Shown in pieces: positions 9,627 to 64,000 of a DNA stretch of 64,000 nt. Each line of letters begins with the position of its first letter. Position 1 is the first letter of the stretch. The stretch comes from Lineus longissimus. Taxonomy: Eukaryota; Nemertea; Pilidiophora; Heteronemertea; Lineidae. Below the pieces are notes generated by a model. That model made no database searches. It saw only the letters and a program-made list of their open reading frames with translations, and was not told where the DNA came from. Made by a program: the position numbers and the translations under genes. Location of the stretch: the NCBI RefSeq assembly GCF_910592395.1, contig NC_088310.1, positions 7,633,501 to 7,697,500 on the forward strand. Direction: 5' to 3'.

Positions 9627-12457
9627 TTAAAATATAAAAGAGAAAAAGTATCTAAATGCAGCATAGTGCACAGCAGACGAGAAGATGAACAAAAGATGTA
9701 GAGTGAATATCCATCGCTCATCTACTAGAACCTGCCGTGGACTTTCTAAAACTTTATTTTGTTCATGGCCCGGTGGAATTTTAGGATATTTTCCAGTATT
9801 ATAATACGCATCAAGAAGAGCCTCCTTTTCGACATAACGATCATACATCCACTTTGTGAGTCCTTCATTGTCGAGCGGAATTTCGTTAGCAGGGTAGACT
9901 CTGTAGTGTAATGCAAAGTCAATAGATCGCCCTGTTCCGATGGCAAAATCAGCAAAGTTCAAGGCTTTACCATTTGGGTAAGCAAACGTAAGATCAATGA
10001 TATACTTCAGGGAAGGTTTCATGGAATCTGCAAAGAATCAGATAGAAATGAAGAGAAGGATCTGATAGACTAGGAGAAGGAATTTATATTGTGAGTGTCC
10101 TTTAGTTTTTGAAAGCAATTCTGCCTCATAACCTGGTTTTTATAAATAGCATACGTTCAAACAACGAAGTTTAGCCATTTGTTTCATTAATTGCTGAAGC
10201 GATACTGCCAATTGACAGGTATAAGTGACTCCCCAACACGGTGATTCTGTCATTACAGTAGACATTAAAGCTACCCAAGACAAAATATCCCAATAGTTTT
10301 TCAGGAAAAATGACGAAAACTGACAAAAAATGGAGTAAAACTTACTTGACAGTTCAGGGTTAGGCCCTTTCCTGGTCTCTAAGTTTGGTGATAGCAAGTT
10401 AAGGAGGGTGTGCAGGCAGCCAACCCGCGGTAGAGTTACATGCTCCAGTACTGGCAGGTTACGCTCTTGTGCATATCTGAAAGAGGAGTGTCAATGTTTT
10501 TTTCTCAATTTATTTTAGGCTTAACAATTAGAAATTAACTTCCCATGCATAAAAGTCTAACACATGGTCGTTTCAGAGAAAACCTCATGATTTGGGTTCG
10601 TATACCAATCAAAGCTAAGTAACTTCTCAAGATGTAGCATCATAATATACTGCAAATCACTGCACAGGCATCTCACCCTACTTAAAGGGTAACTCGTGTC
10701 AAATTTCACCATATAATGTTTTAGCTGTTTTTGACAAATGACTACGTCACTTTCTCATAAATAGGTAAGGTTTTCGAATCGAAATGCACATTTTCTAGAA
10801 ATTGATGGTTTAATCCCGCCCGGACGGCTCGCTTCGATGCTGTTGAAATTGCGCTACGCCGACGACGTTTTCGTTGATGACGTCACAACATGAACATTTT
10901 CGCGGTCGCGGTGGTTTACATTCAGCGATTTTATAATGAATCTAATCAAAATTGGAAAATTTGAGCTTTATACATTTGTGATCAACAATTAAAAACGGAC
11001 GTATTTCAGCAAAGTTGTAAATCACATCATAGTATCACTTTAAGTCAAAAAGGAACAGCCTACCTCTGACTCCTAGCTCTTCTCTTGTACAGGAACCCTC
11101 CCTCTGGATACAATGTAATCCATTTCCTTTTCAGGGGCCAATAGTGATCCACGATGTGATCTGATAACTGTTTTGATTGGTCACCTCTGCTGTTTTTCTT
11201 ACCCTGAAATTAGACGGTTTCCAAAATAATTCGAACAAACTGAATGCTTCGAGTTTGAAAGTGAATGGTCATTCCTTCTTTGAGAAATCTGTTGACTGAC
11301 TCAAAGACAAGACAGAAACAAGATGTTAATTTTAAGTGACAATAGCTACATGTAGGTATCCGTTGGCTCCTGGGTGGAGAGAAGCAAGTAGGATTCAGTG
11401 CCTTGCTCAAGAACACAAAGACAAATTGGCAGTGATCCCTCAGAGAGGCTAACCCACGACCACCTTATTCTAAGCTGGCACTCTCATCACTATGCCACTG
11501 ATCTCCGAAACCCAACACAGGCAGCATGAAAAATGAAAACTGACCTGTGCAATGAAGAAATCTCGGTGACACTGAGAAATCCATCCGAAATTTGAATATT
11601 TGAAATCTCGGTCAATGATCCACAATTTATCATTGATGACCGACCCCTTGTCTATCAACGCATACATCAGTGCCGGGACATCACACGTACTCTGGTGATT
11701 CACTAGCATCAACGTCTCTCTGTCAAGACACTTCGTGATGTCGTCTCCGTACTCAATAACTGGAACGGAAGAAAAAACAACCTGTTATTTCAGCAGTCGA
11801 AAGTAGAATGTCGTATGTTATAGATGTTTTGTGATCTAAACATATTAATGGCTTTCACTCACGCAAAGTTAAATGAGAAATTTGTCAATATTCATGTATT
11901 TCACGAGAAAATGAAAAGAAGTAGATGTTTTCTTTTTAACGTCCGATATCATGACCTGAATTTTTGCTGCGTTCCTCGACCATGTCTAGTGCTGCACTCT
12001 TACACAGGAGTTCTTGCTATTCATCCATCTATCCATACTTGATCCGATTAAAGAAAGTCTGATCGGGGGTAACTATTTGATTCATCTATCATCATCCCAC
12101 ACTGATAACTGTTGTCTTGAGATCACAAAAGTCAACTCATTCTGTGATTTCAAATTTTGTTTGTAATTTCGAAAATTGCTGGAAGCAATATATCTAGTAA
12201 GTTGCAAAATGAAAGCAAAGCTGTATCCTAGTAAACCAATACTCACTTCTATGACCGCACATCCAACCCCAGTATCCGACCATCGTCAGCAGCCATTTAT
12301 ACATAGTGCCCTCTATTAGCCAATACAACGACGGCTGGAGATACCGTAGTGGTTGAAAGGTAAGGATCCATAGCATATATGTTGGAATGCAATAAAAGTT
12401 ATTGACAATGATGAACAGTACCCGCAGGATATAGATCATAATTTTTGGCAACTCCAT
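9627..12457 (-). CDS. LPGAT1: LPGAT1: lysophospholipid acyltransferase 1
   Basis: Coding exons 12457-12247, 11759-11545, 11203-11064, 10476-10346 and 10027-9627 give 365 residues in one frame; vertebrate LPGAT1 is about 370. The enzyme is an ER membrane acyltransferase that transfers acyl-CoA to lysophospholipids (first described with lysophosphatidylglycerol). Visible family features: an N-terminal hydrophobic segment followed by FQPLRYL and YWLIEGTMYKWLL; the PlsC motif I NHQSTCD (His 92, Asp 97); motif III YPEGGF (Glu about 176); and a C-terminal RVYPANEIPLDNE block followed by a hydrophobic tail. The exon with the ATG begins only two bases upstream at an AG (12460-12461), so the 5' UTR is split. 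A candidate non-coding first exon ends at 13597 (CCGCCG|GTGAGC), back-to-back with fumarase. Confidence 0.9.
11340..11510 (-). repeat. SINE-like repeat in LPGAT1 intron
   Basis: Read on the minus strand it has a tRNA-like head (cagtggcatagtgatgagag, later gtcgtgggttagcctc, a weak B box) followed by cttgagcaaggcactgaatc, the conserved core also seen at 71-150. It fits a tRNA-headed SINE with a V/Deu-like core. The 3' end was not found. Confidence 0.5.
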
Positions 12458-16600: not shown

Positions 16601-19600
16601 ATGAAGATATCTTATCATTTTGAAATAATGACAACCGTAGGATACACAATTAAAAAGCCAAATTGAAATTCATTTCAGTTCGTCAAGAGGTTAAACAAAA
16701 CTAGATGTTGACCCTTGGCTCCAATGCATGGTAGACTAGTAGTGTTACCCATCGGCATTAGGGGTGTAAGGCTTCTTGAGGGATGTGTGTTTTCAACTTA
16801 CTTTGTTCTCCAGGTGACCGCGGGTAAACTCAATGGCCATTTTCCACTGGTGATCTGGCAGACTGGCTCGGGGACGCAGACGAACATGAACCTGAATGAA
16901 GTGATCAGCAACCGCGCCATCGAGATGATGGGAGGAAAGATGGGTAGTAAGAGTCCTATACATCCAAACGACCATGTCAACATGAGTCAAGTAAGTCTCC
17001 CTCTTAACAGCTGCGCAAACAAGGGATTTTTGTCACTGCGACATGTGATTCAGAATGTAATCATTCGATGTGCAACAAAAAGTTTGTATCTCTTGTTTTC
17101 GTGTTAAACAAGTGATCGCCTGATTTGATATTGATGGCAAGGTTTCAAATGCATTTTCAAATAAATTTGTATATTCCAATTTATCTCAGTTTGGTATGAA
17201 ACTCTAGCTTACTTGCATCTTCAGCATATCTAATGGAAGTCGCATTTAAAGGCAGAAACACATCGTTCACATAATCAAATTTCTATACGGCAAACTTTTT
17301 CCAGAGTTCAAATGATACATTCCCGACAACGATGAAGATAGCGACGGCCATCAAGCTCCATGACGTGGTCATTCCAGGCCTGGAGATGTTACATGCTGCA
17401 CTCGCGGAGAAGGCAGAAGAATTCAAGGATATAGTCAAACTCGGACGTACCCACTGGCAGGTAATTGATATCAAGGATATTAAATTTCTGAATGATTGGA
17501 TAAAATCAGAGTGAAAATGCACAAGACTTCTATTCTGTTAGTATTGGTTCTAGTTCACAGTAGGTTAACCAATAATGACATCAAAATCTGAGGTGTTGTG
17601 CTCGATATCTTTGTGAATCTGCCATTGTGCTCTCAGCCTGTGTGAATCTGCCATCTGTGAATGTGGTATCTCCGAACAGACACTGAAACACATTCCGGAG
17701 GAATGTCCTCTGATTACTAACCGGGGGTGGCCTGACCGGAGTCCACGTCTCTCCTTGTGAAGCTATGAGGAACAGAGGCAGATTTGTGTCACACTGTCAC
17801 GTTCTTGAGGACAAGCAGTCTGAAAATTTGACCAATCGAACGCAAAGAAGAAGATCCTGGACAGTGTCTTCTGCAGAACCTGATGAAAGACTTTTTTAAC
17901 AGAATCTGTCTTGTTGTAAACATTTTCCCCCTCACAACTTCAGGATGCTACTCCCCTCACCCTCGGTCAGGAGTTCAGCAGCTACGCTAAACAAGTCGAA
18001 TATGGTATTGAGCGAGTTAAAACTACACTTCCTAGGCTTTATGAAATTCCCGTCGGTAAGTTGGCCTAATTGAGTCATCCGTTCGGCTTGGAGTAAATCA
18101 GCCAGTTTCTTTCCACGTGCATACCGTCGATGTGGTTTTGTATCAATTTTTCCAGTGCAGTTTGTTGGTCTTTTATCTTCTAAATCTGAGGGATTTTCTT
18201 TTCTTTTTCTCCTCAAGTTGATGTTTCACGACGGTCTTCATTCTAACATTGCAGGTGGCACTGCTGTTGGAACCGGTATCAACACAAAAGTTGGATATGC
18301 TGAGAAAATGGCTGCCAAAATCGCTGAAATTACGAGTAAGTGTCATCTCTCGTATTGAAACCTCACTTTTGTCTATTTGTGTGATGTCTACATTCAACAA
18401 GAGTTGTCATAGGACTTCCTGCCCGGAGTGATGTGCGATGGCCAACGACAGCATCAAACACCCAACCATCACTTGGGTGTTTTGATCCAGTTGATGACGC
18501 TGAATTGCTTAGTGTTATCAAACGGTCACCTAAGAAGTCGTGTGACCTTGACCCCATGCCAACTTGGTTGCTAGTATCCTCCATCTCAGCAGTCATTCCC
18601 ATCATCAAGGTGATCGTAAACAGATCCATGGCTGATGGAGTGGTGCCAGACTCGATGAAAGAAGCGTTGGTTTTTCCTCTGCTCAAAAAACCATCCCTAG
18701 ACCAGGAGATTATGAAAAACTATCGACCTGTCAGCAATCTGACTTTCCTCTCAAAGGTACTTGAACGAGTGGTCGCTGCGCGCCTCAAAGCGTACATGGA
18801 CATTCACGATCTCCATGACACTTTCCAGTCAGCATACAAGCAGGGTCACAGCACGGAGACTGCCCTGCTTAAGGTACAGAACGACATTCGATGCATGGTG
18901 GACGAACATGGAGCCGCGATTCTCGTTCTTCTTGATCTTAGTGCCGCGTTTGACACAGTTGACCACGAAATTCTCCTTGGTAGATTGGGTGATTTGTTGG
19001 GTGTATCTGGCACTGCCCTTGCATGGTTCCGCTCATACCTGACATGCCGTAGTCAGCGTGTGGTAATAAACGGGAACCTATCGACTGCGAAACCACTTTG
19101 CTTTGGTGTCCCTCAAGGATCGGTCCTTGGACCGATTCTTTTCCTCGTTTACATTCTACCACTCGGAGAACTGCTTAGAGGATGTGACATTCAAAGGCAT
19201 GGATTTGCGGATGACACACAGGTCTACAGGGCCATTACTGCCTTGCGCGACAGATCTGCTATCCCTCATCAGGTGAAGGAGCTGAGTGAGAAACTGGCAA
19301 TCATTCACCAGTGGCTTGCCGATAACAAGCTGAAAGGAAATCCAGATAAGACTGAAGTCCTCCTGTTTGGCACCCCGCAGTCGCTCAGGTCACTGGACAT
19401 GCATTCAATCGATGTCGCGGGAACTGGGATTAGTGTGTCAAATGTTCCTATTAGGAATCTAGGTGTGCTTTTTGACTCATCCCTCTCTATGGACGCCCAT
19501 GTGAGCAACATCGTCCGTGTGTGTTCTTATCACCTGCGCAACATTGGCAGAGTAAGAAAAGAGTTGACTGATGAAGCTGCTGGGTGCCTGACTCGGGCGA

Positions 19601-21364
19601 TGGTCCTTTCTCGCCTCGACTACTGTAATAGCAGCCTTGCTGGCTGCAGTCAGTCATCCGTGGCCAGACTTCAACTTGTCCAAAACCGTGCAGCCAGACT
19701 TGTTACCAGAACTAGGCGCTCTGATCACATCAGGCCTGTCCTGAAGGAATTGCACTGGCTGCCGGTGGAGCAAAGAATGATTTACAAGTTGTTGGTCCTG
19801 GTCTACGGAGCGATACATGGCACAGCCCCCGGGTACCTTTGCCGCCTCATCACTCCCTACGTGCCAACCCGGCCACTAAGATCAGGGTCGCAGGATATTA
19901 TAACTCAGCCAACATATAGACTCAAAACGTTTGGTGGGAGAGCATTCGAGATTCTTGCTCCCCAAATGTGGAACACTTTGGACGCCACACTGCGACAAGA
20001 GACCTCATTGGCCACATTCAAAAGTTCTCTAAAGACATTTCTATTTCGAGACTATTTCGGGGTGTGATTCAAACTAGGTGGGGAGCGCCACAGAACATTG
20101 CGACAGTGATATGGGGCGCTATAGAAATGCTAATTCTATCTATCTATCTATCTATCATATTTTCATTCAACAAGGAATCCAAATATTTGACTGAAATACA
20201 AATCATTGTATCCTCTAGGACACATAAATGCAAGACAAAACTTTAATCAAAATTGTTGCCAGTACTGGTATTTGATTTCATTTGTCATTTTCAGCCCTCC
20301 CATTCGTAACTGCGCCAAATAAATTTGAATCTCAGGCAAATCAAGACTCGATGGTAGAGGTTCATGGTGCCCTGAACACCGTCGCCTGCAGCCTCATGAA
20401 GATCGGGAACGATATACGCCTGCTCGGGGCAGGACCAAGATGCGGCATCGGTGAAATCCATCTGCCTGAGAACGAGCCTGGCAGCAGTATTATGCCTGGT
20501 AGGTGGCACAAGTAATTGATACCGAACTGGAGGTATTGGCTGTCGCACCAAAACCGCGAGGGTGGAGCTTAAATGTAGACCAAAACAGAAGCGGAGCCGA
20601 GTTGTGTCCAGGAAGCACCTCAGTTCAAAGCTGGTGTCATGCTCTAGCAGAGGTTTGCTAATTCCATTCAACTTGGCCCGAGTTGATTTGAGCATACGCC
20701 ACTGATGGGTTCATAGGCAGGGGCATAGCTACCGGGTCGGGGACAGGAGTGCCAAATACCCCCTCCCAAGGAGTCGCCCCCAAAATCTTTTGACGATGAC
20801 TTCGAATAAAAAATTTCATTGAGTGTTGTTTTGCCCCCCCCCCAGAGAGTCTTTCCCCAGACCAAGAAGCTAGGTACACCCCTGATAGGGTTAGTATCAC
20901 AATCCTCATGGTTGGGATTTTTCTTCATTTCAGGCAAGGTGAACCCTACCCAGTGCGAAGCTCTCACGATGGTCGCCGCTCAAGTCATGGGAAACCAGGT
21001 CGCGGTGTCGGTCGGAGGAAGCAGCGGCCATTTTGAATTAAACGTCTTCATGCCGATGATCATGGCTAACGTCTTGCGTTCGGGTCGCTTGATAGGTGAC
21101 GCCAGTGTCAGCTTTACGAAAAACTGCATAAAAGGCATCACGCCGAATAAACGGCGAATTGGTCGGTTCTTGAATGAGTCCCTGATGTTGGTGACTGCTC
21201 TGAATCCAAAGATCGGTTACGAAAACGGAGCAAAGATTGCAAAACATGCCCTTGAGCATCACATGACATTGAAGGAGGCTGCAACTCACTTGGGACTTGT
21301 TACTCCAGAACAGTTTGATGAGTGGGTGAGACCTGAGAATATGTTAGGACCGAAGGAGAATTGA
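13689..21364 (+). CDS. FH: Fumarate hydratase (class II fumarase)
   Basis: Exons 13689-13709, 14015-14101, 15973-16092, 16375-16488, 16814-16990, 17305-17460, 17944-18055, 18255-18335, 20295-20498 and 20934-21364; 1503 nt, 500 residues. It interconverts fumarate and L-malate as a homotetramer. Class II motifs are intact: [25 protein letters not shown] (174-181), GRTH (His 223) and the signature GSSIMPGKVNP (352-362), ending [15 protein letters not shown]. The position after GRTH is Trp, where human has Thr and E. coli FumC has Leu. The modelled N-terminus ([19 protein letters not shown]) is acidic and is not a mitochondrial presequence. Either this is the cytosolic form, or an alternative first exon supplies the targeting peptide. 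Intron 8 holds a LINE; intron 2 holds a TA-type MITE (14928-15093). Confidence 0.92.
14928..15093. mobile_element. MITE with TA target duplication, second intact copy
   Basis: 166 bp flanked by TA at 14926-14927 and 15094-15095. Starts CAGTGGAACCCC and ends GAGGTTCTACTG, same family and orientation as 7577-7754, about 12 bp shorter. Lies in fumarase intron 2. Confidence 0.7.
18402..20163 (+). mobile_element. 5'-truncated non-LTR retrotransposon (CR1/L2-like) in fumarase intron 8
   Basis: The 1.76-kb insertion is bounded by an 11-bp direct repeat, cattcaacaag, at 18391-18401 and 20164-20174, read as the target-site duplication. It ends in a short (TCTA)n tail (about 20136-20156) rather than poly(A), as in CR1/L2-type elements. 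The 5' half, including any endonuclease domain, is missing. It has the same orientation as the host gene. Confidence 0.8.
18433..20067 (+). CDS. LINE reverse transcriptase, C-terminal part of ORF2
   Basis: An uninterrupted 544-residue frame. Reverse-transcriptase features in order: [51 protein letters not shown], the [13 protein letters not shown] loop and the catalytic FADDTQ box. It ends in the [14 protein letters not shown] tail usual for this class. Translation as a separate protein from this Met is not implied; the frame simply opens after the 5' truncation. The lack of stops or frameshifts points to a young copy. Confidence 0.85.
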   Translation: MRWPTTASNTQPSLGCFDPVDDAELLSVIKRSPKKSCDLDPMPTWLLVSSISAVIPIIKVIVNRSMADGVVPDSMKEALVFPLLKKPSLDQEIMKNYRPVSNLTFLSKVLERVVAARLKAYMDIHDLHDTFQSAYKQGHSTETALLKVQNDIRCMVDEHGAAILVLLDLSAAFDTVDHEILLGRLGDLLGVSGTALAWFRSYLTCRSQRVVINGNLSTAKPLCFGVPQGSVLGPILFLVYILPLGELLRGCDIQRHGFADDTQVYRAITALRDRSAIPHQVKELSEKLAIIHQWLADNKLKGNPDKTEVLLFGTPQSLRSLDMHSIDVAGTGISVSNVPIRNLGVLFDSSLSMDAHVSNIVRVCSYHLRNIGRVRKELTDEAAGCLTRAMVLSRLDYCNSSLAGCSQSSVARLQLVQNRAARLVTRTRRSDHIRPVLKELHWLPVEQRMIYKLLVLVYGAIHGTAPGYLCRLITPYVPTRPLRSGSQDIITQPTYRLKTFGGRAFEILAPQMWNTLDATLRQETSLATFKSSLKTFLFRDYFGV

Positions 21365-22480: not shown

Positions 22481-25400
22481 TTATGACTGATTTTGCAATG
22501 TCAGCATTGCACCAACAATCAAGGCGAGGGTCATCATTGTTGCCAGCGGGAATCTTGATAGTCCTGCTGCTCTGCCTCCACCTGAACCCGGGCCTGAAAA
22601 GATAAAATACCACCGTAAACAATAACAGTTTATACATTAACAGTTTTTTAAACCCCGGACCCGCCTTGTGGGTTTTCAATAAAATTCCCTGCACACATTG
22701 GGCTCTGTGTGTGGTATATTCACCTCAAGGTAATGTGGCACAATCATGGCCGCTGTCAAAAGAGTCGGTTGCACTTTATCATCACTTTCTTCGACAGTTC
22801 CTGCTAAAATGAAGAACCCATGATAAAAGGCACAGAATATTACTCGGACATGTCAGATGGCCTGCCCTGTACTTACCAGTGGTTGCAGTTGATGTGCTGG
22901 TTGGACCTGGAAAGGGAATTCCCAATGCCGTTATGATATAGATATGATTCAGTTGGGGAAGTAGCCGTCTTCAACAAGATACTAGTTATTTACTTACACT
23001 TTTCCATCCGCAACGGAAAGCAATTTATTCCTGTATAGTTCCTGCCAAAATTGAGAACCCATGATAAAAGGCACAGAATATTACTCGGACATGTCAGAAG
23101 GCCTGCCCTGTATACTTACCAGTGGTTGCAGTTATTGTGCTGGTTGGACCTGGAAAGGGAATTACCAATGCCATTATGATATGATATGATTCAGTTGGAG
23201 AAGTAGCCGTCTTCAACAAGATACTAGTTATTTACTTTTTCGAAACAGAAAGCAGTTTATTCCTGTCTGGTTCCTGCCAAAATGGAGAACCCATGATAAA
23301 AGGCACAGAATATTACTCAGACATGACAGAAGGCCTGCCCTGCACTTACCAGTGGTTGCAGTTGATGTGCTGGTTGGACCTGGGAAGGGAATTACCAATG
23401 CCATTATGATATGATATGATTCAGTTGGAGAAGTAGCCGTCTTCACAAGATACTAGTTATTTACTTTTTCGAAATGGAAAGCAGTTTATTCCTGTCTGGT
23501 TCCTGCCAAAATGGAGAACCCATGATAAAAGGCACAGAATATTACTCAGACATGACAGAAGGCCTGCCCTGTACTTACCAGTGGTTGCAGTTATTGTGCT
23601 CGGACCTGGAAAGGGAATTACCAATGCCATTATCATATGATATGATTCAGTTGGAGAAGTAGCCGTCTTCAACAAGATACTAGTTATTTACTTTTTCGAA
23701 ACAGAAAGCAGTTTATTCCTGTCTGGTTCCTGCCAAAATGGAGAACCCATGATAAAAGGCACAGAATATTACTCAGACATGACAGAAGGCCTGCCCTGTA
23801 CTTACCAGTGGTTGCAGTTGATGTGCTGGTTGGACCTGGAAAGGGAATTACCAATGCCATTATGATATGATATGAGTCAGTTGGAGAAGTAGCCGTCTTC
23901 AACAAGTTACTAGTTGTTTACTTTTTCGAAATGGAAAGCAGTTTGTTCCTGTATGGTTCCTGCCAAAATAGAGAACCCATGATAAAAGGCACAGAATATT
24001 ACTCAGACATGTCAGAAGGCCTACCCTGTACTTACCAATGGTGGCAGTTGATGTGCTGGTTGGACCTGGGAAGGGAATTACCAATGCAATTATGATATGA
24101 TATGATTCAGTTGGGGAAGTAGCCGTCTTCAACAAGATACTAGTTATTTACTTTTTCGAAGCGGAAAGCAATTTATTCCTGTCTGGTTCCTGCTAAAATA
24201 GAGAACCCATGATAAAAGGCACAGAATATTACTCAGACATGTCAGAGGGCCTGCCGTGTATACTTACCAGTGGTTGCAGTTGATGTGCTGGTTGGACCTG
24301 GGAAGGGAATTACCAATGCCATTATGATATATGATATGATTCAGTTGGGGAAGTAGCTGTCTTCAACAAGATACTAGTTATTTACTTACACTTTTCCATC
24401 CGCAACGGAATGCAGTTGATCCCTTTATGGGTTCCTGCCAAAATGGAGAACCCATGATAAAAGGCACAGAATATTACTCGTACATGTCAGAAGGCCTACC
24501 CTGTACTTACCAGTGGTGGCAGTTGTGCTGGTTTGACCTGAAAAGGGAATTGCCAATATTCTTATGATATGATATGATTCAGTTGGAGGAGTAGCCATCT
24601 TCAACAAGATACTAGTTATTTACTTACACTTTTCCATCCGCAACGGAATGCAGTTTATCCCTTTATGGGTTCCTGCCAAAATGGAGAACCCATGATAAAA
24701 GGCACAGAATATTACTCGTACATGTCAGAAGGCCTACCCTGTACTTACCAATGGTGGCAGTTGTGCTGGTTTGACCTGAAAAGGGAATTGCCAATATTCT
24801 TATGATATGATATGATTCAGTTGGAGGAGTAGCCATCTTCAACAAGATATTAGTTATTTGCTTATTCTTTTCTTTTACGTAACTGAAAGAAGTCTATTCC
24901 TGTATGGTTCCTGCCAAAATGGAGAACCTATGATAAAAGGCACAGAATATTGCTCAGACATGTCAGAAGGCCTGCCCTGTACTTACCAATGGTGGCAGTT
25001 GTGCTGGTTTGACCTGGAAAGGAAATTGTTTATTCCAGTAAAATAGCAGACTCAAATAGGAACTGCCAATGCTGACATTTACATTAAGATAAACAATGAA
25101 TTGTGGTCACTTAACATTAACATACTCCCAGGTTTTAAATGGGCATTTACTTCATTTTGAACAAGTTCTAATTGCTTTAGGATTTCAAGTTCTAGCCAAA
25201 GTGGTGATACCTTTGGTCAACCCTTAATAGAGAGGTTCTACTAGCTGCATGCCCCTTAAATATGCCCAATGCATCTTTTTACTTACATGTTGGGGTAAGT
25301 GTTGAAAGAATATCAGCCTTGAATGTTTCGATCTGTGATGGTTCGATAGATCCTTCCATAACCGTCATACCAGCCAATTCAGTTCTTCGGAATGGGGCTA

Positions 25401-28269
25401 ACCTCTTAAAATACTTGCCAAATACAATGTCACTTTTCATCACGTCTTTATATATACTGTCGAATATGCTCTTTCTCGTCACAACGTCATCCACCCAACC
25501 CATCAATTTGTTCTCAGGCCCACTGGAATCCAAACTGAAACCCACAAATACCCAAGAGTTGACCTTGAGGCTTGAGCTATGGCGAAATGAGTAATAAGAT
25601 CTCGCATTTGGTTTTGCTCCAAATTGTGCCAGATACACGAGACCTGGGTGCCATAGTATCATAACCGGGATATCTTCATCTGAATTGCGATCGGTGTAGT
25701 AGTAGTAACCTCCGACAGTAAAACTCTTCCCCACAAAATCTAAACTCCCATCCTGTGAAAAATATATCCATCCACTTGTGAAGATCCAAGAGTTCAAGCA
25801 TCCATCTACGTTCCTGGTCTCGTTGATTGTGACGTTCGTCTCCTCCTTTATTGTGATGCCAGGGTGGTGGTTGCCAGGCTTAGTCTGTCCAAGTAAGATC
25901 CAGTACTTATTACCAAAGAATGGTCCTGAAATGTGATTTTCATTGAATTTTAAGACACAGCAGAGCAGCATTATAAATGTTTTGTGTGTAATAAATATTT
26001 TTGAAAAGAAACTTGATTGTCACACAGGAGTCCACAGGTCAGTACAACTAAAGTCAATTCAACCTGTCAGAAGGAAAGAGTTGAGTCCACAGGTCAGTAC
26101 AACTAAAGTCAATTCAACCTATCAGAAGGAAAGCGTTGAGTCCACAGGTCAGAACAACTAAAGTCAATTCAACCTATCAGAAGGAGAGAGTTGAGTCCAC
26201 AGGTCAGTACAATTAAAGTCAATTCAACCTATCAGAAGGAGAGAGTTGAGTCCACAGGTCAGTACAACTAAAGTCAATTCAACCTGTCAGAAGGAGAGAG
26301 TTGAGTCCACAGGTCAGTACAACTAAAGTCAATTCAACCTGTCAGAAGGAGAGAGTAGAGTCCACAGGTCAGTACAACTAAAGTCAATTCAACCTATCAG
26401 AAGGAGAGAGTTGAGTCCACAGGTCAGTACAACTAAAGTCAATTCAACCTGTCAGAAGGAGAGAGTTGAGTCCACAGGTCAGTACAACTAAAGTCAATTC
26501 AACCTATCAGAAGGAGAGAGTTGAGTCCACAGGTCAGTACAACTAAAGTCAATTCAACCTGTCAGAAGGAGAGAGTAGAGTCCACAGGTCAGTACAACTA
26601 AAGTCAATTCAACCTGTCAGAAGGAGAGAGTTGAGTCCACAGGTCAGTACAACTAAAGTCAATTCAACCTATCAGAAGGAGAGAGTTGAGTCCACAGGTC
26701 AGTACAACTAAAGTCAATTCGACCTGTCAGAAGGAGAGAGTTGAGTCCACAGGTCAGTACAACTAAAGTCAATTCAACCTGTCAGAAGGAGAGAGTTGAG
26801 TCCACAGGTCAGTACAACTAAAGTCAATTTAACCTGTCAGAAGGAGAGAGTTGAGTCCACAGGTCAGTACAACTAAAGTCAATTCAACCTGTCAGAAGGA
26901 GAGAGTTGAGTCCACAGGTCAGTACAATTAAAGTCAATTCAACCTATCAGAAGGAGAGAGTTGAGTCCACAGGTCAGTACAACTAAAGTCAATTCAACCT
27001 GTCAGAAGGAGAGAGTTGAGTCCACAGGTCAGTACAACTAAAGTCAATTCTACCTGTCAGAAGGAGAGAGTTGAGTCCACAGGTCAGTACAACTAAAGTC
27101 AATTCAACCTGTCAGAAGGAGAGAGTTGAGTCCACAGGTCAGTACAACTAAAGTCAATTTAACCTGTCAGAAGGAGAGAGTTGAGTCCACAGGTCAGTAC
27201 AGCCCAGAACAACCTAGTTCTCACCAAGAGTGGAAGAACACCACCAAAAGACAAAAGGAAGAACCAACTACATTGTGAAATCAATGAAGCGGTGGCCAAT
27301 AAAATGAGTAAAACATGCATAATGACTATAGTCTGCCAACTGTTCTGAAGTCAACCAAGTATAGGCTGTTAACTCATTTTTCTTCTTATAAAGAGTCGCC
27401 TATAAGCCAAAACACAAACAGTGAGGCTGATATTGTTGTATAATAGTTATCTGGTCTACATCTTACAAATTTGCGTAACCTCTCTAATGTGTATTTACCA
27501 ACTTTGCACTTTGTGATCTCCCGCCTTTTCTTGCTATTCTTGAACTTTTGTCATTGAGGCCATTGAGGTCGTTTCTATGACAACGCACGTGCACCATCCA
27601 TTCAATCATAATTTAATCAATTAATAGTTTGCCTTGTGATTGGCCAGGGACTACTTTCTTTCATAATTCACCAATCACAGAGTAGCTTGGTCACGTGGTG
27701 ACGCCCCACTTTTGAGGTGCGGGGCTTCTAAAATCACTTGCCTGGGACACAAGCGGATGGTAACAACTCGTTGATTTTCTGTGCTATCCTTCAGAGTTCC
27801 CCAAGTCAGGGGTTCGCTTTCTTGAACCTTTAGCCATGTCGTAAATCAAGTACTGGAACATTGATCCTCTGTATGCCAGCTGGCATACCCTAGACGATGT
27901 AACACGTAATGGAGAAATAAACGTATAAAAGACATATCTGTGTTCTGGTTCAACTGCTGGTCATCACGTGGATCTTCTAACAGACACTCGCTCTATGGAA
28001 TATAACAATATCCTTGCATGCTATCCTTCTGTCTTTGGCAGCCGGTCCAATAAAGTCTGAATTCTCGCCTGGGCCACACCCACCCTGGGATTTTTAGAAC
28101 TTCCAGTACAGTTTCCTCGGTCATCAAATTGCAGAAGCCGGTGCACCGTGAAAAGGAACTGGACTTAAAGCACCAGTAAAAAAGGAAAAAGTGGAATGAA
28201 CTCACCTGTCCCATTCGTAAAGAAAATCATGCACAGGATAAGGACCACCACAGCAACTATGCTTTTCAT
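22481..28269 (-). CDS. Secreted LamG-like protein with micro-exon-encoded Thr/Ser-rich stalk and hydrophobic tail (unnamed)
   Basis: I do not recognise this gene by name. Model: signal-peptide exon 28269-28206 (MKSIVAVVVLILCMIFF, TNGT); domain exon 25925-25287 (212 full codons); ten micro-exons between 25013 and 22877; last exon 22593-22481. Every intron is phase 1, total 1104 nt, 367 residues. The domain exon resembles a concanavalin A/LamG-type beta-sandwich (FTSGWIYFSQDGSLDF, VNSWVFVGFSLDSSG, KLMGWVDDV) and has sequons NVT and NET. The micro-exons add repeats such as PTSTSTATTG, a probable O-glycosylated stalk. The last exon encodes a small-residue stretch (GPGSGGGRAAG) and a hydrophobic tail (LATMMTLALIVGAMLTL) ending NQS, like a GPI signal or a C-terminal membrane anchor. 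It is probably a cell-surface protein; ligand unknown. Intron 1 carries a 55-bp minisatellite. Confidence 0.72.
22795..25050 (-). repeat. Tandem array of about 230-bp units, each carrying one micro-exon
   Basis: Ten units with spacing of 226-243 bp between exon starts. Micro-exons (minus strand): 25013-24987, 24775-24749, 24537-24511, 24297-24268, 24065-24036, 23835-23806, 23605-23579, 23379-23350, 23149-23120 and 22906-22877. Lengths are 27, 27, 27, 30, 30, 30, 27, 30, 30 and 30 nt. All are flanked by an acceptor of the type CCYTTYCAG and a donor GTAAGTAC or GTAAGTAT. All begin and end in phase 1, so any number can be included without a frameshift. The first three encode QTSTTAT(T/I)G; the rest encode PTST(S/I)TAT(T/I)G or PSTITATTG. 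Confidence 0.8.
25149..25243. repeat. Dispersed repeat arm joined to a MITE end
   Basis: cattttgaacaagttctaat, tgctttaggatttcaagttc and tagccaaagtggtgatacct match the arms of the foldback elements near 59.5 and 60.5 kb. It runs directly into aatagagaggttctacta, the 3' end of the TA-type MITE. Confidence 0.5.
26028..27200. repeat. 55-bp minisatellite, about 21 copies
   Basis: Unit reads gagtccacaggtcagtacaa, ctaaagtcaattcaacctgt, cagaaggagagagtt. Copies differ by only a few substitutions (for example cctgtcag/cctatcag, gagttgag/gagtagag) and keep a strict 55-bp period. Lies in intron 1 of the LamG gene. The period is not a multiple of three and there is no coding role. The homogeneity suggests recent expansion. 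Confidence 0.9.
27201..28205. other. Remainder of LamG-gene intron 1
   Basis: Includes two opposed CCAAT motifs (attggccaggg near 27640 and ccaatcaca near 27670) and a perfect palindrome atgccagctggcat near 27873. These could be a repeat or an internal promoter; not enough is visible to decide. Confidence 0.3.
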
Positions 28270-28880: not shown

Positions 28881-29080
28881 AAGTAGGCGAAATGGCTAGT
28901 AGGCGAAAAGGCAAGTAGGCGAAATGGCTAGTAGGCGAATTGACAAGTAGGCGAAATGGCTATTAGGCGAAATGGGTAATAGGCAAAATGGTTATAGGTG
29001 AAATGGCTGTAGGCAAAATGGTTATAGGCGAAATGATTGTATGCAAATGGCTGTAGGCGAAATGATTGTAGGCGAAATGG
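28881..29080. repeat. Short-period degenerate repeat (gtaggcgaaatggcta)
   Basis: About 12 imperfect copies of a 16-bp motif based on taggcgaaatggct. Upstream of the LamG gene. Confidence 0.8.
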
Positions 29081-61782: not shown

Positions 61783-64000
61783 TCACCTGGTGGCGAAAGA
61801 ACTTCCTGTTACCCGGTTGAACTGTCTGCTTCGCCGTTTCCTTTGACACGTGAGTAGCCTATAAAATGTTCGCCGGAAGTTGACATTGCATAACGCATAG
61901 CAAATGGGATTCACTGTACTGTTGATGTAACATAACCAATAACCTGAAAATGGAACGAAAATATTAGAAAAGGGGTGAAGAAAAAAACCACGCACCTCCC
62001 GGCGAGAGCTCGACGATATTTGGGTTGCCAATCGCTTCCGATGGTAGGTGACAATGACGAAGCAATTCTCATAGAATTGGTTTGGTGTCAATATTGTGTC
62101 AGGTTTGAAGATATTCTGAGTTTTACAAAAAACCGAAGATGACAAGATTTCTTGACTCCCCAACACGAGGAACAGAGAGAGATCTCACTGATCACGTGTT
62201 AGCCAATCAGAAGCCCCAATCCTGCTTTTCCGGGACATCCTTCAGAATTCAACCAGTCATAAATTAGTATTTTGGTAAGAGTCACGGTCAAATAAGCTTT
62301 CGGAAAAGCTTTTCGGACGAATGCCAAAGATCGTCAGCAAAATGCCATACATGGTAAAGTGTCATTGCCCAAAGCAACGAAGGAAGGATGGACGATCATT
62401 GAAACGGTGATGATTCCAATCTCTGTTCTGAAGCCACGTGAAATCTTTTGATCGTCTCTTTGTTAATGATAGCAATGACAGGCATGGCCTGAGGGCTGAA
62501 ATAATCGACTTCATCAATTTGGAATTTGATAACACCACTCCGGATCGATTTCAGAACCATACTGAGATTACGAAATAGAATTGAAATAGAAGCGCATGTT
62601 AAAAATAATTCGTATTCTAATATCTTTCTAACAAAAGAATTTCAAAGAATTTTTCGCTAAGGCTACCGACATCATCTTAATTAAAAGGATCGTCTCACTA
62701 TTCGTATCATTGATCAAATGGAGGATTTTGTATTATAATGAGAAAAGATCCTTTTCGGAAAATGATGACCCAGTTCATTCAGTGCTAAAACAGACATCTC
62801 ATTAGATTTCGGGTCTTTTCCTTTTAAAAGAGTAATATTTTCTAACAACCAACACGACTGAATAATTGCTCGGTGAGTTGTTGGCTGGATGCAGAATTTA
62901 GAACTGTCAGAATCTTACCAGGATTATAACAGTCAGAATCTTAACAGAATCTTAACTGTAAGAATCTTAACAGGATTATAACAGTAAGAATCTTTTAATC
63001 ATCTTAACAATAAGAATCTTAACAGAATCTTAGAATAATTTAAAACAAAAAATATCATGTGATGTTCTTTCCCAGTCACCGTACCACTCTCAACATTCCG
63101 TCTTGGAAAAAGCCCTTTTGTTAAGTTAGATTTATGATCAAGAGATTTGAATTCAGTGTAAGATGCTGAGCCGTGCCGCTGCATTGACTTATCAGGCGCA
63201 AGACCATGAAGCAATTTGATATATCTGATAACAGCTTACATTGACGTGATCGTATGGGAATAGACAAATACGCACATGTTTCGCTATAATTTTCGTGTTT
63301 TCTTTAATGACTATCTAAAACTTTCTCAATCGTTTTTGTGCGAGGCAAGGGTAATCTTGAATATAAGCTCTTAGAATATATAAAAAACGACTGCAAATTA
63401 TGGAACTTAAATTGGAATGTGACTTCCATTTAAATCCTGCTGGATTGATATCTCTCATCAGGACGGCACTTTCTTGTTTGTTTGGTCCAGATATTAGTAT
63501 AAAATAGGATGTTGATCCACCCACAGTCTTCACACTTTTAAGTGTAAATATTTCACTTACCTATAGCATAAAGTGTATCTCCTATGCAGTCGGGACAAAA
63601 GGCTTTTATCACAGTGAATATATTATATGGTGTCCAGGTGATGATGAATGCGAATAAGATGGCACTGAGAGTCTTGGCAGCTTTCTTCTCCTGTTTTTGC
63701 TCTTTCCGTCTCCGCCGGGCGCGCTGACTTTTCATTTTTTGTGCAAACTTGGTGGCCATTTTGGCCTGCATTGCCACGCGTATTGCATCACTGTTCTGAT
63801 TAAGGCGCCGCGTGGCTGAGTTCGATGCGGAGATGGTACCACTAGAACAAGGTCTTGATATGGGATTACTGCTAGTACTAGAAGCACCCTCTTTGGCTCT
63901 CGCCCTAACCCCAGACTCTGACGACTCTTCTTTGATCTCCGTAATCTCGTCATCTTCCTCGCTCTCTGATAGCATACGAATCATGGGTTTATTGTCATCA
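61783..64000 (-). CDS. Muscarinic acetylcholine receptor, C-terminal part; 5' part outside window
   Basis: Two exons, 64000-63561 (open at the window edge) and 61943-61783, joined in phase 1. This is a class A GPCR of the plasma membrane. The first exon holds the end of intracellular loop 3 (acidic, Ser-rich EESSESG, then a basic [20 protein letters not shown]) and transmembrane helix 6 with the signature [20 protein letters not shown], followed by KAFCPDC. The second exon holds helix 7 with the NPxxY-type motif ([20 protein letters not shown]) and a short tail ([20 protein letters not shown]), ending in [14 protein letters not shown] and FCPDC are strongly muscarinic. The intron falls in extracellular loop 3, just before helix 7. 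G-protein class cannot be called from this part. Confidence 0.92.
62905..63035. repeat. Degenerate short repeat (cagaatcttaacaggattataa)
   Basis: Several imperfect copies of agaatcttaaca in the intron of the muscarinic receptor. Confidence 0.7.

Follow-up and report, generated by a model that had tools for sequence, protein, structure and literature searches.

The arrangement in which a very short coding exon is copied in tandem along with its flanking introns is described for SmPoMuc of Schistosoma mansoni, in which the 27-bp exon 2 is repeated with flanking introns in genomic units of about 1 kb; there can be as many as 20 of these, and the exon encodes repeats of nine residues; the same paper, in the sections cited here, also refers to spider silk genes with exon-plus-intron repeats (PMC2576457). 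We analysed a stretch of 64,000 nucleotides (the window, to which all positions refer) from chromosome 3 of the ribbon worm Lineus longissimus (contig C3, 7633501-7697500). It carries on its minus strand, at 28269-22481, a gene that a protein search showed to be annotated by NCBI as the uncharacterized protein LOC135485637, with many isoforms. Its name was not found in a literature search, and among the matches listed no title concerned this gene. Taken as a whole, the explanation that we regard as probable is that LOC135485637 is a real gene of L. longissimus, for which the genome yielded no close copy, and that it encodes a secreted, most likely glycosylphosphatidylinositol (GPI)-anchored surface glycoprotein with a divergent LamG/ConA-like head and a C-terminal anchor signal, joined by a Thr/Ser-rich stalk that is a coding tandem repeat of micro-exon units.

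Described systems with repeated short exons

The original prediction, made from the DNA letters, had recognized no named family with this layout; SmPoMuc, with its 27-bp exon in a tandem genomic repeat of about 1 kb, provides such a precedent. Like the Lineus gene it combines a signal peptide, a short repeat exon held with its flanking introns in a tandem repeat, and splice variants; its nine-residue repeats contain S, T and P, and parts of its introns are more than 94% identical (PMC2576457). It differs, in the cited portions of its description, by the unit of about 1 kb, by imperfect GA microsatellites in between, by belonging to a multigene family and by having the repeats directly after the signal peptide; furthermore, its paper contrasts it with GPI-anchored mucins and reports an intron-coded hammerhead ribozyme (PMC2576457). 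The Lineus gene, in contrast, occurs at a single locus with ten copies of a unit of about 230 bp, and its stalk lies between a lectin-like head and a GPI-like tail. No Rfam match at gathering score, to a hammerhead ribozyme or otherwise, was found in the 64-kb window, and protein searches using words derived from the head, with the stalk left out of the query, returned only the two isoform clusters of LOC135485637 itself. The Lineus gene shares the layout of SmPoMuc and lacks its ribozyme mark; as kinship in sequence is not shown, the gene can be said to work in the manner of SmPoMuc, but not to belong to it. Lineus longissimus is a free-living nemertean, and its gene most likely represents the SmPoMuc layout in a separate and compact form, used by a free-living worm for a lectin-like protein with a GPI-like tail.

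The micro-exon genes (MEGs) of S. mansoni, as far as covered in the sources cited, contain 10 to 20 very short exons, which make up as much as 75% of the coding sequence and are separated by introns of 100 to almost 5000 bp; they resemble the Lineus gene in having a signal peptide, in-frame skipping and at least ten symmetric exons of very small size (PMC10526429, PMC4015677). In the Lineus gene, by comparison, micro-exons account for 288 of 1104 coding nt (26%), introns of 199-213 nt lie in one homogeneous array and there are three larger coding exons. Outwardly it is built like a micro-exon gene, with skipping apparent only through its annotated isoforms.

The P exons of avian fast troponin T are small and of tandem origin. 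Up to seven of these exons with a repeating motif are described, and their inclusion lengthens a segment as in the Lineus gene, but the product is a muscle protein rich in His and Glu (PMC7581897). Leucine-rich repeat genes of Tetrahymena resemble the Lineus gene in their tandem exon-plus-intron units of a few hundred bp (about 347 bp in T. thermophila) and constant phase, and differ, in the account cited, by 90-bp exons, phase 2, the leucine-rich repeats themselves and a large ciliate family (PMC6564038). The Rlec lectin of Macrobrachium has 1 to 9 coding repeats of 30/33 bp, but all of these are reported within one exon, which is the layout of a coding minisatellite (PMC7536079).

Gene model, micro-exon array and isoforms

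The gene closes as 13 coding exons, with a coding sequence (CDS) of 1104 nt, 367 residues and a single stop at the end, and every junction from the signal peptide through the tail is in phase 1, that is, after the first base of a codon. This confirms the predicted succession of head, micro-exon stalk and hydrophobic tail closing in one frame, with predicted coordinates that proved exact to the base. The protein search gave two clusters for LOC135485637, with isoforms X17 and X6 representing 1 and 23 member sequences, respectively; the isoform comparison is based on annotation and covers these 2 of the 24 member sequences. The features of the gene are:

28206..28269, minus strand: coding exon 1, start codon and signal peptide, 64 coding nt, ending in phase 1; N-terminus common to both isoforms seen
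26028..27201, minus strand: minisatellite in intron 1, 55 bp x 21.3; 21 copies have a pyrimidine tract followed by AG/GT
25287..25925, minus strand: coding exon 2, probable LamG/ConA-like head, 639 nt, phase 1-1; assigned through paralogue PF13385 matches and a model
22797..25027, minus strand: tandem array of ten units of about 230 bp (acceptor, micro-exon, donor, intron), the last unit truncated
24987..25013, minus strand: micro-exon 1, 27 nt
24749..24775, minus strand: micro-exon 2, 27 nt, DNA identical to micro-exon 1
24511..24537, minus strand: micro-exon 3, 27 nt, missing from X17
24268..24297, minus strand: micro-exon 4, 30 nt, DNA identical to 6, 8 and 10
24036..24065, minus strand: micro-exon 5, 30 nt, missing from X6 and X17
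23806..23835, minus strand: micro-exon 6, 30 nt
23579..23605, minus strand: micro-exon 7, 27 nt, missing from X17
23350..23379, minus strand: micro-exon 8, 30 nt
23120..23149, minus strand: micro-exon 9, 30 nt, missing from X17
22877..22906, minus strand: micro-exon 10, 30 nt
22481..22593, minus strand: last coding exon, 113 nt, Gly/Ser/Ala-rich linker and hydrophobic stretch resembling a GPI signal; C-terminus common to both isoforms seen

Across the array (22797-25027) the period from acceptor to acceptor is 226-243 bp, introns between micro-exons span 199-213 nt, and the micro-exons measure 27 nt in units 1, 2, 3 and 7 and 30 nt in units 4, 5, 6, 8, 9 and 10. Each of the ten acceptors is a CAG at the end of a pyrimidine-rich stretch, and each of the ten donors is GTAAGT, which bears out the claim of a tandem repeat of about 230 bp with a conserved acceptor and donor in each unit. 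As a control, AG...GT pairs 15-99 columns apart were collected from the first 148 columns of the ten-unit alignment; 14 such pairs on the transcribed strand and 8 on the opposite strand are common to all ten units. A length divisible by three in every unit was seen for just one of these 22 pairs, the proposed micro-exon, and for none of the eight on the other strand. Likewise, among the nine full units both indels inside the micro-exon are of 3 nt, and the five intron indels are of 2, 1, 1, 10 and 1 nt.

The array might instead be a non-coding satellite with open segments arising by chance, the real transcript joining the head exon to the tail. This would agree with the divergence between the nine full units, which at 8.7% in the micro-exon and 8.2% in the downstream intron is about equal and counts against a coding case drawn purely from sequence; the 40 nt upstream of the micro-exon diverge by 18.3%, partly since the upstream flank of unit 1 lies outside the array. 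Because the micro-exon diverges about like the downstream intron, the coding case rests on the frame, the splice sites and the annotated isoforms, and the equal divergence suggests that the array was homogenised as a whole. We nevertheless consider a satellite highly improbable, given that indels within the exon are of 3 nt only, that the one symmetric pair among the 22 is the micro-exon, that the GTAAGT donor is invariant, and that X6 and X17 both hold micro-exons in frame. The direct splice from 25287 to 22593, on which the original prediction had staked the coding status of the array, is absent from both isoforms, each of which uses micro-exons.

The most similar units are 6 and 8 (99.1%) and 2 and 3 (97.5%), a near-identity that, as expected, would fit recent unequal exchange. 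The introns also contain a 22-nt stretch, AATATTCTGTGCCTTTTATCAT, invariant in all ten units and located 36-57 nt past the micro-exon (38-59 in units 4 and 9). A block of this length was reached in 42 of 10000 column shuffles, or 23 of 10000 with one mismatch allowed, though the block was picked after inspection and the alignment columns are non-independent; it could perhaps serve splicing. Each unit has a second acceptor-like site, which was considered as the start of another exon and rejected: neither isoform seen uses it, and in the last unit the segment from it to the next GTGAAT has, by manual count, a length that breaks the phase.

Genome-wide searches, which skip very common words, returned ten matches for the array unit, all at this locus, and one for the tail exon, again at this locus. 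The tail, signal peptide, stalk and unit DNA had no match better than E 0.7 at 27 other loci, and tandem-repeat scans of 20 paralogue loci (L009-L028) revealed no comparable micro-exon array. Two repeats of similar period from these scans were set aside: one of 264 bp x 2.0 (L012) is an EGF-like exon duplicated together with its intron, and one of 255 bp x 2.3 (L015) has no CAG...GTRAG pair on either strand. The L. longissimus genome paper gives, in the part cited, a chromosome 3 of 29.08 Mb and a PacBio long-read coverage of 79-fold (PMC8593623); with this coverage, collapse of the 2.2-kb array would be unlikely.

All 1024 subsets of the ten micro-exons stay in frame, none with an inner stop, and together they specify 492 distinct proteins. 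X6 fits only one of these subsets, with all micro-exons except that of unit 5, and X17 likewise fits only one, with units 1, 2, 4, 6, 8 and 10 (without 3, 5, 7 and 9). Each ~230-bp unit would accordingly be pictured as a self-contained splicing module of one phase 1-1 micro-exon, an intron and splice sites; exon skipping would set stalk length in steps of 9 or 10 residues, and between alleles the gain or loss of units through unequal exchange would alter it as well. Since all junctions are in phase 1, any set of units lengthens the stalk without touching the head or the anchor.

Several observations weigh against reading the two isoforms as skipping. 'X' isoforms are computed models with RNA-seq support. 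Micro-exons 4, 6, 8 and 10 are identical, as are 1 and 2, and short reads are therefore unable to place the skips: for any junction present in X6 or X17 but not in the full-length mRNA, there are six or eight different genomic pairs that could yield it, and a shorter allele could do so too. Moreover, X17 retains exactly the micro-exons of repeated sequence (1, 2, 4, 6, 8, 10), a pattern that could also arise from chaining of ambiguous reads or from a shorter allele. These ambiguous junctions, along with the near-identical units that suggest recent change in copy number, are what would be seen if each allele had one fixed splicing pattern and the isoforms were alleles with other unit numbers or products of chaining short reads across near-identical exons. 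The annotation does contain two different subsets, however, and 24 member sequences exceed what two alleles could supply, if the other members differ in the stalk, although several animals could be their source; we hold a fixed pattern to be rather unlikely. The claim that both DNA copy number and alternative splicing can change the length of the stalk is plausible, but X6 and X17 do not separate the two.

We infer, in addition to GPI anchoring and O-glycosylation, glycan binding by the head, regulation of the skipping and allelic change in copy number. More tentatively, and with less confidence than in the gene model itself, a compact mucin stalk tuned by splicing may have arisen in a free-living spiralian independently of schistosomes, from a 230-bp coding satellite with a shared intronic control element (the 22-nt block), and might vary the reach of a GPI-anchored lectin-like receptor both between the transcripts of a single animal and between alleles. 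Should the isoforms prove right, the gene would offer a small system, confined to one locus, that encodes the length of a protein in copies of a splicing module. In it, DNA copy-number variation of the stalk could be separated from splicing variation, and its existence suggests that parasites exposed to pressure from a host are not alone in having the SmPoMuc layout.

Head, stalk and tail of the predicted protein

The gene is one member of a lectin-like family found on several chromosomes of L. longissimus, with paralogues in the same genome at 23-28% identity. The most likely fold of the head, as part of the explanation held probable above, is a divergent LamG/ConA-like one. The originally predicted LamG-like assignment obtained no profile match of the head itself and is supported indirectly, through the paralogues: Laminin_G_3 (PF13385) scores 29.4 bits in L020, above the cutoff of 27.6, and below it 27.3 in L021 and 22.1 and 17.0 in L022. 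A single-sequence structure prediction (predicted local distance difference test, pLDDT, 34) was not used for fold search. The model based on the paralogue alignment (predicted template-modelling score, pTM, 0.76; pLDDT 68) matches lectin-like domains by Foldseek and VIA-align, with a ConA-like beta-sandwich fold. A phage tailspike, sialidases, an arabinanase and clostridial-toxin binding domains stand at the top of these lists, and such matches would indicate a shared lectin-like fold only, not a function.

The stalk slice has 62 Ser or Thr among its 98 residues (63%) and seven Pro, and is expected to be O-glycosylated; it is preceded by three N-x-S/T motifs, one where the signal peptide ends (residue 19) and the others at residues 52 and 56. 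In the tail, the best 17-residue stretch has a mean hydropathy of 2.14 and ends four residues before the stop. Usual GPI signals have a hydrophobic C-terminal stretch after small residues and nothing charged following. The stretch itself would also suit a transmembrane anchor that crosses the membrane once and leaves four residues in the cytoplasm, but it is followed by QNQS only, with no basic or charged residue, and preceded by a linker with small residues. This is the shape of a GPI signal as generally understood, and it makes a transmembrane anchor unlikely and a GPI-anchor signal the most likely role of the tail.

Against this picture of the protein stand the following points. The exon 2 translation matches no Pfam family even at E<=10 and no NCBIfam entry, and finds nothing better than E 0.073 among PDB sequences; one isoform (P0003) has two weak and unrelated Pfam matches (E 0.083 and 0.33). 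Laminin_G_3 is unmatched in two of the six paralogues scanned, the head model is of middling confidence, with 26 of 212 residues below a pLDDT of 50, and the Foldseek TM-scores, normalized to query length, are 0.39-0.61 among the matches listed. The O-glycosylation and the GPI signal, for their part, are read from residue composition.

Paralogous loci and other features of the window

The paralogous loci show repeats of their own. On C7 (L011 and L012, 19437980-19447188) eight head-domain exons lie in tandem about 1.1-1.5 kb apart, larger exons thus being arrayed in the same manner as the micro-exons, and the 264 bp x 2.0 repeat of L012 is an exact duplication of the EGF-like exon and its intron. 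Many head-domain copies are present on C15 and within the first 1.4 Mb of C17 (L014-L020, L023-L028); some are in repeats of about 1.9 kb (L018, L020, L026) and several lie beside satellites of about 32 bp. Repeat units of 1.2-1.96 kb span head exons in L012, L018, L020 and L026.

The intron 1 minisatellite (26028-27201, minus strand) presents 14 copies of CAG/GT and 7 of TAG/GT, and thus a row of acceptor-like or recursive-splice-like sites on the transcribed strand directly before the head exon. Upstream of exon 1, at 28882-29080, there is a 16-bp repeat of 12.9 copies; by eye, repeats sharing TAGGCGAAA with it occur near the C6 paralogues and in L023. Near the gene, at 18385-20064 on the plus strand, an open frame of 560 residues contains a reverse transcriptase domain (RVT_1, E 1.4e-30). 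Among ten frames scanned, an acyltransferase C-terminus (PF16076, E 1.8e-14) was found at 9630-10037 and a partial rhodopsin-family receptor (7tm_1, E 7.2e-11) at 63556-63999, both on the minus strand.
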